From Acidobacteria bacterium RIFCSPLOWO2_12_FULL_66_21 (GTDB lineage Bacteria; Acidobacteriota; Vicinamibacteria; Vicinamibacterales; 2-12-FULL-66-21), in contig MELC01000091.1 of NCBI GenBank assembly GCA_001767455.1, forward strand, positions 1 through 64,000: a stretch of DNA of 64,000 nt, written 5' to 3'. The notes under the pieces were generated by a model. The model made no database searches. It saw only the letters and a program-made list of their open reading frames with translations, and had not been told where the DNA came from. The position numbers were made by a program, and so were the translations under genes. Of this stretch, positions 3,039-11,690 are shown one piece after another (the first letter of the stretch is position 1; each line of letters opens with the position of its first letter).

Positions 3039-5734
3039 CGCGGCCGCCGCGGCGTGATCCGCATCTGCCACGTCCCGCGCGGTGGCTGCTGCCGCTGTCA
3101 CCCGTGCCGCGCGAGACGCGCGCCGAGGCGGAGGCCGACCTGCACGAGCTCTTCGTGGGACGCCGGCGCGATCGCGGCACCCTCTACGCGCACTGGCGCC
3201 TGTATCACGATGTGGCGAGCCTGTGGCTCCACCCCCGGCCGGTGGTGCGTACAGCCACGACTCGGTCCCCGCTCGCGCTCCTGCGCGACGCGCGCGGTGA
3301 CCTCAGGTACGCGGTGCGCCTGTTCGCGCGACAGCCGGCGATTCTCCTGCTGACGATTGTCGGTCTTTCATTGGGACTCGGCATCGCCACCGCGGCGTTC
3401 AGCATCTTGAACGTAGCCGCCCTGCGCGGCGAGGGCCTCCTCGATCCGGATCGCGCGCCAGGGGTCTTGAGGACCACCGACCGGTCAGTGTCGACCGTCT
3501 GGACGTACGACGAGTTCCTCCACTTGCGCGAAGGCGCGACGCGGATGCATGTCGAGGCCCTGCTCTCGAGTCCTGCCCGCGTGGGGACGACAGCAGCGGA
3601 AGCCGATCCCCCTGCGGCGGTCCTGGCATTCGTCAGCGGCGGATTCTTCGCCGCGACGGGTGGACGGGTTGTCGCCGGCCGTCCGCTCGAGGTCGCCGAT
3701 GAGCAGTATGTCCAGCACGGCGGTCCGCCGCCGGTTGTGGTGAGCTTCGTCTTCTGGACCTCGAAGCTCAATCGGGATCCCGCCGTCGTCGGGCGCACGA
3801 TCCGGATCGGGCGCACCGATGCGACGGTCGTCGGCGTGGCGGAGCGTGGTTTCACTGTGCCGCGCAGCCCGGTGCTCTGGACGCCGCTGACCGCTTACGG
3901 CGCGGTGTACGGCGCCAGGCAGCACGCAGCGCCGGTGAGGCCGGCGCCCGGCATCGTGGTCGAAGTCTTTGGACGGTTGTTGCCGGATGTTGCGCTCGCC
4001 GAGGCTGAAGGGCAGCTCAGTGGCGTGGCCTCCGCGCTGCCGCATGGTGCGACGGCTTGGGCGCCGAAGCCTTCGGCGAAGGCGGCCGACTCGGCGCTCC
4101 GGGTGAGACTGGATCCCCACGCGGGGCTGGGGCGCGCGTCCGCGTCAGACACGGTGGGGATCACGGTAATGGTGTCCGCCGTGATCGGCCTCGTGCTGCT
4201 GCTGGCGTGCGCGAACGTCGCCACCGTCCTCATCTCGACCGCCATCACGCGCCAGCGCGAGATGGGCATCCGGGCGGCGCTCGGCGCGAGCCGCTGGCGT
4301 ATCGTCCGGCAACTCGTCACGGAGAGCCTCGCGCTCGGGACGCTCGCCGCGAGCATCGGTCTGGCGTTTGCCTACTGGGCCATCCCGATCATCGGCACGA
4401 TGGTGGAGGCGCCGGAGGGCGTCGACCTCGCGCCGGACCTCACCGTCTACCTGTTTCTGGGAATCGTGACGCTCGTCACCGGCGTCGGCGCCGGTCTGGC
4501 GCCCGCCTGGCACGGTCGCGGAGCCGATCTCGTCACGCCGCTCAAAGGGGACGGCGCGCGAGAGAATCGAGTCGCGCCGCGGCGCCTGCGGTCCATGCTC
4601 GTCATGGCCCAGGCGGCCGTCTCGGTGCTCCTCATCGTTCTTGCGGCACTGTTCGTACGCGCGACCGTCCGCGCGGCGACGATCGAGGTGGGGTTCGATG
4701 CCGCCGGGCTCTACACGGTCGCCCCGGGACTCGGTGACGCAGCCGATGATGGCGGTGCCGCCACCCGGAACTTCTGGGCGCGCGCGACGTCCGAACTGCA
4801 GGCCTTCCCGGGCATCGCTGCTGTGGCCCTCGCCGACCGAACGCCATTCGGGGGGATGGGCAGGACCTCGATCACCCGTGACGGTCTGGCGCGGGTCGTC
4901 AACCTGCATGGCACGCGCGGCGAGTATTTCGAGGCACTCGGTCTGCGCTTCCTCGCGGGACGGACCTACACGCGCGACGACATCGCGGCGAGGGCTCCAG
5001 TGGCGGTTGTCAGCCAGTCACTCGCACGCGCGTACTGGCACGACCAGTCGCCGCTCGGTCAGCTGCTGCCGCAGGAGATCCCGGTGGCGTCGGCCAGGCC
5101 GGTGGTCGTCGGTGTGGTCGCCGACGCGATCACGTCGCATCTGCACGAGCGCAATCCATTCGCGGTCTACGAGCCGCTCGACCCCGAATATGAGAAGTTC
5201 GCCGAACTCCTGATACGGGTGGCGCCTGGCACAACCGGCGTCATCGATCAGGCGAGCCAGCGGTTGCGCGCGATCGATCCGCAAGCCGATGTCAGGATCG
5301 CGAGCGTCGCGGCGCGACTCCAGCGGGAGGCGGGCCGCCCGCGCATGCTGGCCACCCTCACCGGCGTGGTCGGCATCGTCGCCATCGTTCTCTGCGTGAT
5401 CGGTCTCTACGGCCTGACCGCGTCCGTCGTCGGTCAGCGCGCGCGCGAGATGGCCGTGCGCGCCGCGATCGGCGCGGAGCCACGGGATCTGCTGCGCCTG
5501 CTGATGTGGGACAGCTTGAGGCCGGTCGTGCTCGGTCTTGCGGTCGGTGCCGGGGCAGCCCTGCTCGCCAGTCGCGTTGTCGTGGCCGCCATGCTCTTCG
5601 GCGTGTCGCCGCAGGATCCGACGGCATATGCAGGAGCGGCCGTGATCCTGCTTGCCGCGGCGACACTGGCGGTGCTGGTGCCGACGCGCCGCGCCGCGGC
5701 GGTGGATGCGGCGTGTGTCTTGAGGCGGTCGTGA
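3035..5734 (+). CDS. ADOP-type ABC permease (MacB/FtsX fold)
   Basis: 899 residues from a GTG at 3035 that overlaps the padR stop and has AAGGAGGG (3022-3029) in good position. The frame is open further upstream but only as a shadow of padR. N-terminal ~60 residues are the cytoplasmic prefix typical of acidobacterial duplicated orphan permeases; then a first membrane helix (PAILLLTIVGLSLGLGIATA), a MacB-type periplasmic core, a triple-helix FtsX domain (VIGLVLLLACANVATVLIS...), a second core and a C-terminal FtsX domain with GVVGIVAIVLCVIGLYGLTA. This duplicated layout has no adjacent ATPase, hence 'orphan'. These proteins probably work with ATPases encoded elsewhere in export or signalling; substrate unknown. 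Confidence 0.88.
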   Translation: MTRPPRRDPHLPRPARWLLPLSPVPRETRAEAEADLHELFVGRRRDRGTLYAHWRLYHDVASLWLHPRPVVRTATTRSPLALLRDARGDLRYAVRLFARQPAILLLTIVGLSLGLGIATAAFSILNVAALRGEGLLDPDRAPGVLRTTDRSVSTVWTYDEFLHLREGATRMHVEALLSSPARVGTTAAEADPPAAVLAFVSGGFFAATGGRVVAGRPLEVADEQYVQHGGPPPVVVSFVFWTSKLNRDPAVVGRTIRIGRTDATVVGVAERGFTVPRSPVLWTPLTAYGAVYGARQHAAPVRPAPGIVVEVFGRLLPDVALAEAEGQLSGVASALPHGATAWAPKPSAKAADSALRVRLDPHAGLGRASASDTVGITVMVSAVIGLVLLLACANVATVLISTAITRQREMGIRAALGASRWRIVRQLVTESLALGTLAASIGLAFAYWAIPIIGTMVEAPEGVDLAPDLTVYLFLGIVTLVTGVGAGLAPAWHGRGADLVTPLKGDGARENRVAPRRLRSMLVMAQAAVSVLLIVLAALFVRATVRAATIEVGFDAAGLYTVAPGLGDAADDGGAATRNFWARATSELQAFPGIAAVALADRTPFGGMGRTSITRDGLARVVNLHGTRGEYFEALGLRFLAGRTYTRDDIAARAPVAVVSQSLARAYWHDQSPLGQLLPQEIPVASARPVVVGVVADAITSHLHERNPFAVYEPLDPEYEKFAELLIRVAPGTTGVIDQASQRLRAIDPQADVRIASVAARLQREAGRPRMLATLTGVVGIVAIVLCVIGLYGLTASVVGQRAREMAVRAAIGAEPRDLLRLLMWDSLRPVVLGLAVGAGAALLASRVVVAAMLFGVSPQDPTAYAGAAVILLAAATLAVLVPTRRAAAVDAACVLRRS

Positions 5735-5771
5735 GCTGCTGGATGTGAGCGGCGAGCGAACCTCGTGGGTG

Positions 5772-6362
5772 CTACTTTCCGCCGGAGACCGCCGCTTCGA
5801 TTGCCCGGGCAAGATCGACCACGGGACCGTTGAACACCGTGGCCGTTGGCATCCGCTCTTCCCAGCGAGCGCCCTTCGGATACACCGCGGCGAGGTCCCA
5901 CAGAACGCCGGAGTGTACGCAGCACTCTTGCTCGGGCTGCGGCGACCGCGCGTCGGCGGCCATCTGTTTCGCGAGCACGTGATTGCGATCCCAGTACTGT
6001 TGCACGCGGCGATCGGAGGCTCGGCTCAGCACCGATGTTGTGGGGGCCATGAAGTCGGTTGGCAGGATAGGCTCCCAAACCATGAACACGCGCACGGCAG
6101 CGTTCGGCTGCTTCGCTAACACCGATTCGACTGCGGAAGACCCCCGCAGACAGTTTGGTCAAGTTGGCGAGAGCAGCACGATGATCCGTGTCTCGCTCGC
6201 GGCCCGGTTGAAATCCGCCTTGACGGTGGCGAGGGAGGCGGGATCAAGATACGCGAGCGGCAGTTGACCGGCTGGTGCATCGTGGGATGCGAAGCGCACA
6301 TAGCCGAACGCCGCAGCGATTGCCACGACCACGAGGATCAGGAGCAGCTTTCGTCGAGTCAT
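5772..6362 (-). CDS. Selenocysteine-containing thioredoxin-like protein (UPNC motif, TGA read as Sec)
   Basis: Read through the in-frame TGA at 6161-6159, one 196-residue protein results. Residues 5-21 form a signal/anchor helix (KLLLILVVVAIAAAFGY); then a thioredoxin-like strand ETRIIVLLSPT leads into residues 68-71, U-P-N-C, exactly where thioredoxin-fold proteins have CxxC. The frame continues with VFMVWEPILPTDF, a vicinal cysteine pair C147-C148, and FNGPVVDLARAIEA at the end. Immediately after the TGA is a SECIS-like hairpin (6149-6131). Ordinary annotation would give two broken genes, but there is no frameshift: both parts share one frame. The start ATG overlaps the stop of the MerT-like gene upstream (ATGA, 6359-6362). 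The protein probably handles thiol or metal redox chemistry outside the cytoplasmic membrane; the substrate is unknown. The selenium insertion genes are not in this window. Confidence 0.83.
6131..6158 (-). promoter_or_regulatory. Bacterial SECIS element
   Basis: Directly downstream of the TGA (6161-6159) the mRNA can fold as CUGCGG (6149-6144), loop GGGUCUU (6143-6137), CCGCAG (6136-6131): six perfect pairs. The loop contains GGUCU, the same bases that SelB recognises in the E. coli fdhF SECIS, and begins 16 nt after the UGA, within the spacing accepted for bacterial SECIS elements. Below a U-U mismatch a G-C and a U-G pair extend the stem. This supports decoding of UGA as selenocysteine. Confidence 0.8.
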
Positions 6363-6682
6363 GGCATCCAATCGGCGAGCAGGCCGGCGATCAGTTGCGG
6401 GAAGAGCACGACGAGCAGCACGAGCGTCGTGGACGCGGCGAGGATCACCACGGAGGCGATCCCGTGCCTCCGGCAGGCGCGGCGCGCCCGCGCGAACTGC
6501 ACGGCGCCGACCGCGAGCAGCACCACGGACGCTCCGAGGAACGCCCATCGGTAGGAACCCGCAACGATCGCGAGACTGGCCGAGGCGGTGCCCGCGGCGA
6601 ACGCGATCGGCAGGCAGCACGCCAGCGTGGCAAGCGCGCTCAGAGCCGCGGCAACCGGAGCGATTTTATCAGTGTGCTTCAT
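6359..6682 (-). CDS. MerT-like small membrane protein
   Basis: 107 residues from the ATG at 6682, with three predicted membrane helices. Helix 1 carries a vicinal cysteine pair (ATLACCLPIAF, C22-C23) as in the mercuric-ion transporter MerT and relatives; the second segment (YRWAFLGASVVLLAVGAVQFA) is followed by a loop with one further cysteine (RRACRR, C70) and a third helix. MerT passes Hg(II) from periplasmic thiols to the cytoplasm; related small proteins may move other soft metals. No merA, merP or merR is nearby. An alternative start at 6703 would add MPGDREE; neither start has a convincing Shine-Dalgarno. It is translationally coupled to the selenoprotein, so the two likely act together. 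Confidence 0.7.
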   Translation of the reverse strand: MKHTDKIAPVAAALSALATLACCLPIAFAAGTASASLAIVAGSYRWAFLGASVVLLAVGAVQFARARRACRRHGIASVVILAASTTLVLLVVLFPQLIAGLLADWMP

Positions 6683-6833
6683 CTCTTCGCGATCGCCGGG
6701 CATTCCGGAGCGGTAAGTCCCCGCCATTTTAGAACGCCAGGTGTCGGAATTCTGCGTCGAGTCGGCGATCAGCCGCCAGGCCGGACTTGAAAGTCGCGGG
6801 GCCGTAAGGGCCGTGTGACTTCGAGACGCATGG

Positions 6834-6848: not shown

Positions 6849-7082
6849 ATGTGCCGGAACATCAAGCAGCTCTTCAATTTCGATCCACCCGCCAGCGACG
6901 AAGAGATCCGCGCCTCGTCGCTCCAGTTCGTGCGGAAGCTGAGTGGGTTCAACAAGCCTTCGAAAGCGAACGAGGCGGCTTTCGATGGCGCCGTCGAGGA
7001 AGTCTCCGCCGCGGCCCGCAAGCTGTTGCGGTCCCTCGTGACGAACGCGCCCCCGCGCGATCGCTTAGTCGATAGTCGATAG
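6849..7082 (+). CDS. DUF2277 family protein
   Basis: 77 residues that match the small DUF2277 family nearly end to end: MCRNIKQLFNFDPPA, EEIRASSLQFVRKLSGFNKPS, and a C-terminal helix that usually ends near NAPPRDR. Members are short cytosolic proteins of unknown function, common in Actinobacteria and Acidobacteria. The final residues LVDSR are encoded by a tandem GATAGTC repeat that begins at 7066, so the repeat has extended the 3' end of the gene. No operon partner; the neighbours on both sides are on the minus strand. Confidence 0.88.
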   Translation: MCRNIKQLFNFDPPASDEEIRASSLQFVRKLSGFNKPSKANEAAFDGAVEEVSAAARKLLRSLVTNAPPRDRLVDSR

Positions 7083-7126
7083 TCGATAGTCGATAGTCAA
7101 AGTCAAAGTCGAAGTCGAAGTCGTCA
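7066..7126. repeat. Heptamer/hexamer tandem repeat at convergent gene ends
   Basis: Four copies of TAGTCGA are followed by AAAGTC, AAAGTC, GAAGTC and GAAGTC units. The array lies between two convergent genes and supplies the last codons of DUF2277 and reaches the stop codon (7124-7126) of the HTH-RDD gene. Slippage here would change the C-terminus of the former. Confidence 0.75.
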
Positions 7127-8522: not shown

Positions 8523-8725
8523 CAGAAGCCTCCAGCGGGAACACCAATACCGATCGGCACGTGCATCCACGTCCCGTACCAACCTTATCGCGAGCCGGTC
8601 GGGGGGAATTCCCATGCAAAATCGAGCTGCCCACCAACGAAGGCGGGTCGTGTCGCCGGTAACCCGGCACCCTTGCTCGCGCAACGCGCAAACAATGAGA
8701 GACTTGGATGGGAGGAAGGGGGGCC

Positions 8726-10147
8726 ATGTTCCTGCGACAAATCGTTGACGAGAAGCTTGCGCAGTACGCCTACCTGATTGGCTGTCAACGGACCGGCCAG
8801 GCGCTCATCATCGATCCCGAGCGGGACATCGATCGCTACGTGGCCGCGGCGGACGCCGCCGGTTTGCGCATCGTGGCGGTCACCGAAACCCACATCCATG
8901 CGGACTTCCTGTCAGGCGCGCGGGAGTTCGCGGAGCGGTACGGCACGAGGGTGTATCTCTCGGACGAGGGTGATGCCGACTGGAAGTACGAATGGGCCGC
9001 CCTCAGCAAGTACGACTGCGTGTTGCTCCACGACGGCGACACCTTCCGGATCGGGAACATCGACGTGAAGGCGGTGCACACGCCCGGCCACACACCGGAG
9101 CACCTCGTCTTCCTCATCACCGACACGGGCGCCGATGCGACCGAACCGATGGGGATGGCCAGCGGCGACTTTGTCTTCGTCGGCGATCTCGGCCGGCCGG
9201 ACCTGCTCGAAAGCGCGGCGGGGCTGCACGGGGCCATGCGGCCGTCCGCCGAGCGGCTGTACGGCTCCGTCCAGCGGTTCCTGCATTTGCCGGATTTCCT
9301 GCAAGTCTGGCCCGGACACGGCGCCGGTTCGGCGTGCGGCAAGGCGCTGGGGGCGGTACCCGAGACGACCGTCGGGTACGAGAAACGATTCAGCGCGGCG
9401 ATCAAGGCCGCCCGCGGCGGTGAAGAGGCGTTCGTCGACTACATCCTCAAAGATCAACCGGAGCCGCCGCTGTACTTCGCGCGGATGAAGCGCGACAACC
9501 GCAAGGGCCCGCCGATCCTCGGCGACCTGCCGCGTCCGCGCCGCATGGATCCCCGCGCCCTCGTGACCGCGTTGAATGGCAGGGGAATCGTGGTGGACAC
9601 GCGGCTCGATCGTGCGGGCTTCATGTCGCGTCACCTGCGCGGTTCGTTGTATGCGCGGTTCGACAGGGCGTTCAACACCGCCGTGGGATCGCTCCTCACC
9701 GACGAATCGACGCCGCTCTACCTGGTGATCGACGACGACCACGTCGAGGCCGCGGTGCGTGACCTGGTGAGGATCGGGTACGACCGGATCCCCGGCTACG
9801 CGGATCCCGGGGAGTTCGAGGCCTACCTCGCACAGGACGGGGGCAGCCGCACCGAGCAGATCGAGTTCGCGGACGTCGAACAGCTGCGGGCCCGCCCGGA
9901 CCAGCAGGTGCTCGACGTGAGGAACGCGTCCGAGTTCCAGGCGGGCCACGTGCCCGGCGCGCTGAATATCGCATACACTCGGCTCGCCGACCGCCTGGCC
10001 GAAGTGCCGCGCGACAAGGCGCTGCTCGTGTACTGCCTGTCGGGCGCGCGAGCGGCGGTCGCCTCCGCGTTCCTCGAAGCGAACGGATGGAGCGTCAAGT
10101 ACGTCGGCGACAACTTCGGCAATTACGAGCGCATCGCGGCGGGATGA
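8726..10147 (+). CDS. MBL-fold / rhodanese fusion (persulfide or sulfur-transfer enzyme)
   Basis: 473 residues from the ATG at 8726, which has GGAGGAAGGGGGG just upstream; the ATG at 8708 would place the ribosome site inside the gene. Residues 1-240 are a metallo-beta-lactamase fold of the ETHE1/persulfide-dioxygenase group: ETHIHADFLSG, HTPGHTPEH and GDFVFVGDLGRPDL supply the metal ligands. Two rhodanese domains follow: the first (about 285-365) lacks a catalytic cysteine, the second (about 380-470) has VLDVRNASEFQAGHVPGA and the active-site loop CLSGARA. Such fusions oxidise or transfer persulfide sulfur in the cytoplasm. The exact reaction, dioxygenase or sulfurtransferase, cannot be fixed from sequence. 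Confidence 0.85.
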   Translation: MFLRQIVDEKLAQYAYLIGCQRTGQALIIDPERDIDRYVAAADAAGLRIVAVTETHIHADFLSGAREFAERYGTRVYLSDEGDADWKYEWAALSKYDCVLLHDGDTFRIGNIDVKAVHTPGHTPEHLVFLITDTGADATEPMGMASGDFVFVGDLGRPDLLESAAGLHGAMRPSAERLYGSVQRFLHLPDFLQVWPGHGAGSACGKALGAVPETTVGYEKRFSAAIKAARGGEEAFVDYILKDQPEPPLYFARMKRDNRKGPPILGDLPRPRRMDPRALVTALNGRGIVVDTRLDRAGFMSRHLRGSLYARFDRAFNTAVGSLLTDESTPLYLVIDDDHVEAAVRDLVRIGYDRIPGYADPGEFEAYLAQDGGSRTEQIEFADVEQLRARPDQQVLDVRNASEFQAGHVPGALNIAYTRLADRLAEVPRDKALLVYCLSGARAAVASAFLEANGWSVKYVGDNFGNYERIAAG

Positions 10148-10292: not shown

Positions 10293-11690
10293 ATGCATCA
10301 CAAGACGATAATCGAACCCTTTCGCATCAAGTCGGTCGAGCCCATCAAGTTCACCACGCGCGCCGATCGGTCCGCGGCGCTCGTCGACGCCGGCTACAAC
10401 GTGTTCCGCCTGCACGCCGACGATGTGCTCATCGATTTGTTGACCGACTCGGGCACGGGCGCCATGTCCTCGCAGCAGTGGGGCGCGCTGATGCAGGGAG
10501 ATGAAAGCTACGCCGGCAGCCGCTCCTTCTACCGTTTCCGCGACGTGGTCCAGGACCTCACCGGGTTCCAGCACATCATCCCGACGCACCAGGGGCGGGC
10601 GGCCGAACGCATCCTCTTTCACACGCAGGTGCGGTCCGGCCATGTCGTGCCGAACAACAACCATTTCGACACCACGCGCGCGAACATCGAGGTCGAAGGG
10701 GCGGAGGCGCGCGACCTGGTCATCGCCGAAGGACGCGTGCCGTCCGCGCTGCACCCCTTCAAGGGGAACATCGATCTCGACGCGCTGGAAGCGCTGCTCG
10801 TCGAGGACAAGCGCCAGGGAGGGCGCCTCGTCCCGCTCGTGATGGTGACCATCACGAACAACTCCGGCGGCGGGCAGCCGGTCTCGCTCGAGAACCTGCG
10901 CGGCGTGCGCCGCCTGTGCGACACATACAGCAAGCCGTTCTTCCTCGACGCGTGCCGATTCGCGGAGAACGCGTATTTCATCAAGCTGCGCGAAAAAGGG
11001 CAGGGCGACCGCACACCCGCCGACATCGCCCGCGAGGTGTTCCGCCTGGCGGACGGCTGCACGATGTCCGCCAAGAAGGACGGGCTGGCCAACATCGGCG
11101 GGTTCCTGGCGATGAACGACTCGCAGTGGGCGGACACGGCGCGGAACCTGTTGATCCTGACGGAGGGGTTTCCGACCTACGGCGGCCTGGCCGGCTACGA
11201 TCTCGAAGCCATCGCCCGCGGGCTCGAGGAAGTCGTCGAGGAGCCCTATCTCAAGTACCGCATCCGCTCGACGGCCTACCTGGCGGACAAGCTCACGTCG
11301 GGCGGCGTGCCAATCATCCAGCCCGCCGGAGGCCACGCGATCTATATCGACGCCCGTGGCATGCTGCCGCACATTCCGCCGGTCCAGTATCCGGGCATCG
11401 CGCTCGCCAACGCGTTGTACGTCGAGGGCGGCGTGCGCGGCGTCGAGATCGGCACGGTGATGTTCGGGCTGCGAGCCGACGGTACGGAAGTCCCGCCGGC
11501 CATGGATCTCGTGCGCCTGGCGATCCCGCGGCGCGTGTACACGCAATCGCACATCGATTACGTTGCCGAGGTGGTGCTCGCGGTGGCCGCCGCGAGCGTC
11601 TCGCTGCGCGGGTATCGCATCGTCTCGGCTCCAGCCGTCCTGCGGCACTTCACGGCACGGTTCGAGCCGCTACCAGAAGAAGGGAAGTAG
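10293..11690 (+). CDS. tnaA: Tryptophanase (tryptophan indole-lyase)
   Basis: 465 residues, the normal size for PLP-dependent beta-eliminating lyases. Motifs: LLTDSGTGAMS, PTHQGRAAER, DACRFAENAYFIK and SAKKDG with PLP lysine K262. Tyrosine phenol-lyase is a close relative; substrate-site residues favour tryptophanase: FDTT at 125-128 (Asp as in TnaA), VEIG rather than the lyase's MERG, and LRHFTA near the C-terminus with the tryptophanase histidine (H452). It cleaves tryptophan to indole, pyruvate and ammonia in the cytoplasm. It stands alone without a TnaB transporter or a visible TnaC-type leader; the repeat array just upstream occupies the leader region. GGAAGAC serves as a weak ribosome site. 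Confidence 0.88.
   Translation: MHHKTIIEPFRIKSVEPIKFTTRADRSAALVDAGYNVFRLHADDVLIDLLTDSGTGAMSSQQWGALMQGDESYAGSRSFYRFRDVVQDLTGFQHIIPTHQGRAAERILFHTQVRSGHVVPNNNHFDTTRANIEVEGAEARDLVIAEGRVPSALHPFKGNIDLDALEALLVEDKRQGGRLVPLVMVTITNNSGGGQPVSLENLRGVRRLCDTYSKPFFLDACRFAENAYFIKLREKGQGDRTPADIAREVFRLADGCTMSAKKDGLANIGGFLAMNDSQWADTARNLLILTEGFPTYGGLAGYDLEAIARGLEEVVEEPYLKYRIRSTAYLADKLTSGGVPIIQPAGGHAIYIDARGMLPHIPPVQYPGIALANALYVEGGVRGVEIGTVMFGLRADGTEVPPAMDLVRLAIPRRVYTQSHIDYVAEVVLAVAAASVSLRGYRIVSAPAVLRHFTARFEPLPEEGK

Follow-up and report, generated by a model that had tools for sequence, protein, structure and literature searches.

The hairpin that follows an in-frame TGA on the minus strand of this acidobacterial window (the whole stretch of 64,000 nucleotides analysed here) is very probably a bacterial SECIS element, and the gene that contains it very probably encodes a selenoprotein, as judged from comparative sequence analysis (Table 1). 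The selenoprotein reading proposed in the first-pass annotation can be extended: the gene is a member of a wide family, apparently absent from the catalogues, with mercury-gene neighbours.

Table 1. Coordinates of the predicted selenoprotein locus in the window
Feature	Positions	Strand	Description and basis
Predicted selenoprotein gene	5772..6362	minus	196 aa with Sec68; frame open apart from the TGA; homologues, AlphaFold, fold
TGA codon, predicted Sec68 of LLSPTUPNC	6161-6159	minus	in-frame; TGA in 50 of 55 distinct homologues
Predicted SECIS hairpin	6131..6149	minus	sequence, fold, covariation, leave-clade-out model
Hairpin, 5' arm	6149-6144	minus	CTGCGG
Hairpin, loop	6143-6137	minus	GGGTCTT
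Hairpin, 3' arm	6136-6131	minus	CCGCAG
Upstream MerT-like membrane protein	6359..6682	minus	107 aa, ACCLP motif; weak NCBIfam MerT match

Conservation of the TGA codon among homologues

Homologue searches covered the class (193 genomes, 17 with a match) and the phylum (396 genomes, 47 with a match), and most of the matches carry one in-frame TGA. Eleven further loci were obtained from GTDB contigs (ten from Acidobacteriota and one from an Archangiaceae MAG), some of which repeat earlier loci. Removal of duplicates left 55 distinct homologues, nearly all from Acidobacteriota; beyond this phylum, the family is represented by one MAG contig (L080) alone, and no homologue was found in plasmid sequences by tblastn. 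The aligned codon is TGA in 50 of the 55 homologues and TGT or TGC in the other five, none of which has the full stem, in agreement with the earlier claim that the TGA replaces a cysteine. With the TGA read as Sec, the active-site motif becomes LLSPTU68PNC71 (UxxC), and Cys71 is kept in the TGA homologues, with the exception of L060, where a second TGA occupies this position. The two features by which UxxC selenoproteins are recognised, namely, homologues with Cys at the Sec position and a second redox Cys, are both present.

In L060 (genome G417), in-frame TGA codons occupy the two active-site positions (UPKU), and this protein may be a double selenoprotein. In genome G041, a second copy of the gene (L033/L084, contig C77) is broken into two frames close to its end, reflecting either a real frameshift or a sequencing error; the copy on C84 is apparently intact.

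A thioredoxin-fold family apparently missing from the catalogues

In the AlphaFold model of the window protein (mean pLDDT 95.1, pTM 0.89), an N-terminal helix (residues 3-24) is followed by a thioredoxin fold, with the active site placed, as in other proteins of this fold, at the start of helix 1 (here, residue 69 is the first of the active-site helix). In VIA-align comparisons, Z is 11.2 with ResA (2f9s; 117 residues at rmsd 2.5) and with DsbF (3ios) and ~10.6 with GPX4, and the Foldseek E-values for this ResA/DsbF/GPX-like fold are near 1e-3. Together with the lipobox-like N-termini of some relatives, the N-terminal anchor and the predicted fold class suggest a membrane-anchored protein located in the periplasm. 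The family is marked by a conserved LLSPTUxxC...WD...WD pattern, and a vicinal Cys pair (C147-C148) is confined to the MerT-adjacent lineage, where ten members have it.

Searches of Pfam and NCBIfam 20.0 with the window protein returned no family even at E 1; the 54 members compared with the same databases produced only generic weak thioredoxin matches or matches to the fused HMA part, and a profile built from 54 relatives retrieved thioredoxins only, weakly (E 0.01-0.05). A known Trx or TlpA selenoprotein was considered and dropped because no family model matches. A review of May 2026 presents an inventory of 119 prokaryotic selenoprotein families (PMC13188914). None of the families described in this inventory fits the window protein, and none of the inventory families with Pfam or NCBIfam models matches it. 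Within the resources searched (open-licence PMC papers, Pfam and NCBIfam), the family appears to be undescribed, and, as it is present in no catalogue searched, its genes probably carry annotations as truncated hypothetical proteins.

Association with mercury genes

The start of the predicted selenoprotein gene overlaps the stop of the upstream ORF (ATGA, 6362-6359, minus strand). The product of this ORF matches NCBIfam MerT at E 1.9e-5, which is below every MerT cut-off, and has no match in Pfam. A MerT-like relative is encoded directly upstream in 11 other loci with the same hairpin register (type A, see below) and, more weakly, in five loci with another register (type B); the upstream proteins of L043 and L046 are MerT above the Pfam cut-off. 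A MerR-family regulator lies upstream in L050. Sixty neighbour ORFs were sampled at other loci. Five of them encode MerR-family regulators, for which the best model is the mercury-resistance MerR (3.7e-33); matches to MerT, to MerC and to a CopZ domain were obtained for others, and two ORFs match NF045683 (MerT_CopZ_Se) below its cut-off. In addition, three members of the family, in the Sec or the Cys form, carry a fused HMA (heavy-metal-associated, MerP-like) domain, at the C-terminus in L046 and at the N-terminus in L051 and L064. Mercury genes adjoin many but not all loci; the genes next to many loci of type B, and to many distant ones of type A, are unrelated.

Selenolate has a high affinity for Hg(II), which makes Sec chemically interesting in mercury handling. 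From gene neighbourhood only, we lean towards a protein that works with a mercury-transport system, either in selenol/thiol redox chemistry or in the handling of Hg(II), and favour an exchange of Hg(II) or electrons between a periplasmic UxxC selenoprotein and a MerT-type transporter. The serious competitor, which we rate somewhat below an even chance, is a general extracytoplasmic thiol-disulfide oxidoreductase (ResA/TlpA/DsbE-like) without a mercury role, next to which the mer genes are incidental. Such an enzyme would suit the nearest folds (ResA, DsbF and GPX) and the many loci without mer neighbours, but would leave unexplained the MerT-like gene that immediately precedes the family gene in 12 loci of type A (and, with weaker similarity, in five of type B), the occurrence of the MerT, MerR and MerC families among the sampled neighbours, and the HMA domains fused at either end.

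Several other features were observed near these genes. In three related genomes (L052, L054 and L056), a Cys-rich small protein, GDCCV(Y/F)CSYGS...CPP, is encoded directly upstream of the selenoprotein gene. In the window, a short intergenic tandem array of TAGTCGA-like units spans 7066-7123, and two ORFs on the plus strand resemble, by eye, a persulfide dioxygenase/rhodanese fusion (8708-10147) and, after it, a tryptophanase (10293-11690).

Geometry of the hairpin and its chance level

On the minus strand, the sequence 3' of the TGA reads CCAAACTGT CTGCGG GGGTCTT CCGCAG. The stem and the loop GGGUCUU were given exactly in the first-pass annotation, to which we add the strand; its distances, counted from the UGA (stem from nt 10, loop of the six-pair reading from nt 16), are likewise borne out by the sequence and the fold. 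The spacer between the TGA and the stem is 9 nt (6158-6150), and a seventh pair, G6143.T6137 (G.U), leaves an apical loop GGTCT (GGUCU) at 6142-6138. Folding of the 26-mer gives this hairpin as the structure of lowest energy (-9.7 kcal/mol, z -2.5), and equal stability was reached in 2 of 200 shuffles. In the published bSECIS model, the apical loop is located 16-37 nt from the UGA and starts with G (PMC13188914). The first loop base of the window hairpin, at nt 16, lies within this range, the energy of -9.7 kcal/mol over 26 nt is below the bSECIS limit of -7.5 kcal/mol, and the loop, taken as either GGUCU or GGGUCUU, starts with G, the GG being invariant across the 28 type A relatives. An Rfam search with positions 5700-6700 matched no family and gave chance-level matches only.

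A hairpin in a single sequence is weak to modest evidence in this GC-rich window because 74% of its 1421 TGA trinucleotides are followed by a hairpin that satisfies loose bSECIS criteria (a stem of 4 bp or more, a loop of 3-9 with a G at its first or second position, a distance of 16-37 nt, and any folding energy); for the same reason, bSECISearch-style filtering was given no weight as evidence. Stems of 6 bp or more follow 26% of the 1421 TGAs. Six Watson-Crick pairs at exactly the same position are far less frequent, occurring after four of them (0.28%), the studied TGA included, and among the 86 window hairpins with 6 bp and a 7-nt loop, the studied one alone has GGTCT within the loop. The earlier assertion that the hairpin is unlikely to arise by chance holds for this exact geometry, but it is the comparison of relatives, and not the single sequence, that is decisive.

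Covariation of the stem

The TGA homologues with the hairpin in the same register as the window (type A, n=28, window included) pair nt 10-16 with nt 22-28 after the UGA, with the loop at nt 17-21. Pairing is found in 94.9% of the 196 cells (28 sequences by seven pairs), and two-sided compensatory changes occur at six of the seven pairs, a number reached in none of 500 shuffles; in the control with the partners slid, at most 65% of the cells were paired, with few two-sided changes. The outermost pair is broken in nine of the 28 sequences. The covariation picture is unchanged when the clade of the window is left out. The pair nt 12-26, which couples Leu CTG/CTT with Ala GCA/Glu GAA, is never mismatched, 16 sequences having GC and 12 having UA. 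On a protein tree constructed with the hairpin codons masked, which was used to count events per pair, the change from GC to UA at this pair, the commonest two-sided change, is a single event, and the two-sided changes at the remaining pairs fall on other branches. Accordingly, covariation supports the stem through a few events spread over different pairs, not through 22.

The coding sequence provides further evidence. The full stem is observed in 66% of the sequences, compared with a mean of 8.4% (maximum 26%) after random synonymous recoding. The Gly codon preceding the loop is GGG in 27 of the 28 type A sequences and AGG in one, with GGG accounting for 7 of 36 nearby Gly codons. A covariance model derived from 16 sequences outside the clade of the window scored the window site at 40.4 bits, its sole match in the 6.5-Mb genome. 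Thus, the outcome that had been proposed as support for a SECIS, namely, covariation of the stem in relatives that keep the TGA, with GG retained in the loop, is what the relatives display; combined with the leave-clade-out match and the stemless Cys homologues, it backs the reading of the hairpin as a SECIS and of the gene as a selenoprotein gene. Preservation of the stem by compensation alongside the UGA and its absence from the Cys homologues (five available) is the pattern characteristic of bSECIS elements.

The type A loop conforms to GG(G/U)(C/U)(C/U), in which GG alone is invariant in the 28 sequences. Most of the loops are GGGCC; GGGCU, GGUCC and GGUUC are also found, and GGUCU is a minority form. 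The resemblance to the E. coli fdhF loop reported for the window is there, GGUCU being present, but it is not conserved among the relatives; it was dropped as decisive evidence on this account, and the match is partly fortuitous.

Alternative registers of the hairpin

In a second group of TGA homologues (type B, n=18), the stem pairs nt 17-22 with nt 26-31 around a GGU-like triloop at nt 23-25, about 6 nt further from the UGA than in type A. Covariation is weak in this group (one two-sided change), and its assignment as a SECIS is suggested mainly by conserved pairing and loop position. A third register has few members (L048, L052 and probably L032); the hairpin centres are at nt 19 in type A, nt 20 in the third register and nt 24 in type B. 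Two of the 50 TGA sequences, L049 (five of seven positions paired) and L060, fit no register cleanly, the L060 hairpin resembling type B plus one inserted codon. These observations would be compatible with a hitherto undescribed, mercury-associated family of selenoproteins whose SECIS has changed place within the coding sequence relative to an unmoved Sec codon, and which includes a UxxU member with a one-codon insert, a reading that we consider tentative and just short of an even chance. If the SECIS has moved, the SelB of Acidobacteriota would accept, or have co-evolved with, several UGA-to-loop spacings.

Selenocysteine machinery and decoding of the TGA

The source genome (6.5 Mb) encodes SelA, SelB, SelD and tRNA-Sec with the anticodon UCA; the SelB gene resides on the same contig as the window (C91), ~5 kb past the window end. 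SelB was found in 46 of the 49 other genomes with the TGA form, and the three genomes without it are 57%, 72% and 81% complete. Of 20 genomes lacking the selenoprotein gene, 15 were found to encode SelB, as were 9 of 11 genomes whose match has no in-frame stop. The SelD gene of the source genome (L082, contig C42) has an in-frame TGA of its own, within the motif SCAGU. Two candidate hairpins follow this TGA, one with the triloop GCC at nt 16-18 and one with the triloop GUG further down.

Decoding of the TGA as another residue (e.g. Trp), or programmed readthrough without selenium, would also account for the frame being open past the TGA, and selenium is here deduced from sequence; this is highly improbable considering that the position is Cys in the homologues read without a stop, that nearly all the TGA-carrying genomes encode SelB, that a tRNA-Sec with the UCA anticodon is present, and that the hairpin agrees with the published bSECIS model (PMC13188914) in its position and in having a G at the start of its loop. 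A true stop or pseudogene lesion with a fortuitous hairpin, kept for the encoded LRG(A/S)SA in a GC-rich gene, can be practically dismissed: most window TGAs do pass the loose SECIS rules and the stem does code for conserved residues, but the TGA is held at the catalytic-Cys position across the phylum with the frame open beyond it, the Sec machinery is complete, and the stem covaries, is lost on synonymous recoding and is absent from the Cys homologues.

Proposed mechanism and implications

In bacterial Sec insertion, SelB carrying Sec-tRNA(Sec) binds the SECIS loop. By the same mechanism, with the ribosome at the UGA (6161-6159), SelB with Sec-tRNA(Sec) would bind the loop of the window hairpin, and Sec would be placed at position 68 instead of termination. 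The product would be a membrane-anchored thioredoxin-fold protein with the active site U68-P-N-C71, probably facing the periplasm, as suggested by its helix and ResA/DsbF-like fold, and it may be coupled to the upstream MerT-like membrane protein.

If so, a selenoprotein family is missing from the 119-family inventory (PMC13188914), NCBIfam 20.0 and Pfam, and the gene neighbourhood would link mercury handling with the use of selenium by soil Acidobacteriota. The covarying alignment also constitutes a compact natural data set on the loop and spacing tolerance of SelB.

Comparison with known systems

The SECIS element itself is of a known type. Like the element of E. coli fdhF and other bSECIS elements, it is a coding-region hairpin just past the UGA with a small G-starting loop, which in the window is GGUCU. 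The fdhF SECIS has a spacer of 11 nt, whereas the spacer in the window is 9 nt, with no bulged U seen; the loops of the relatives are mostly GGGCC, and some of the hairpins lie about 6 nt further. The first loop base of the window hairpin is at the lower bound of the 16-37 nt model (PMC13188914).

Thioredoxin-fold selenoproteins with a UxxC motif already listed include Trx, TlpA/Prx-like, SaoT and others (Table 1 in PMC13188914). The family described here shares with them the UxxC motif, the thioredoxin fold and, according to the model, an extracytoplasmic ResA/DsbF-like structure, but differs from them in matching neither Pfam thioredoxin nor NCBIfam selenoprotein models and in having a sequence pattern of its own, LLSPTUxxC...WD...WD. 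With MerT/MerP and the selenoproteins PF02411 (mercuric transport) and NF045683, it is connected through the MerT-like neighbour and the HMA domains fused in some members; the predicted selenoprotein is neither MerT nor MerP, but a thioredoxin-fold protein that adjoins them.
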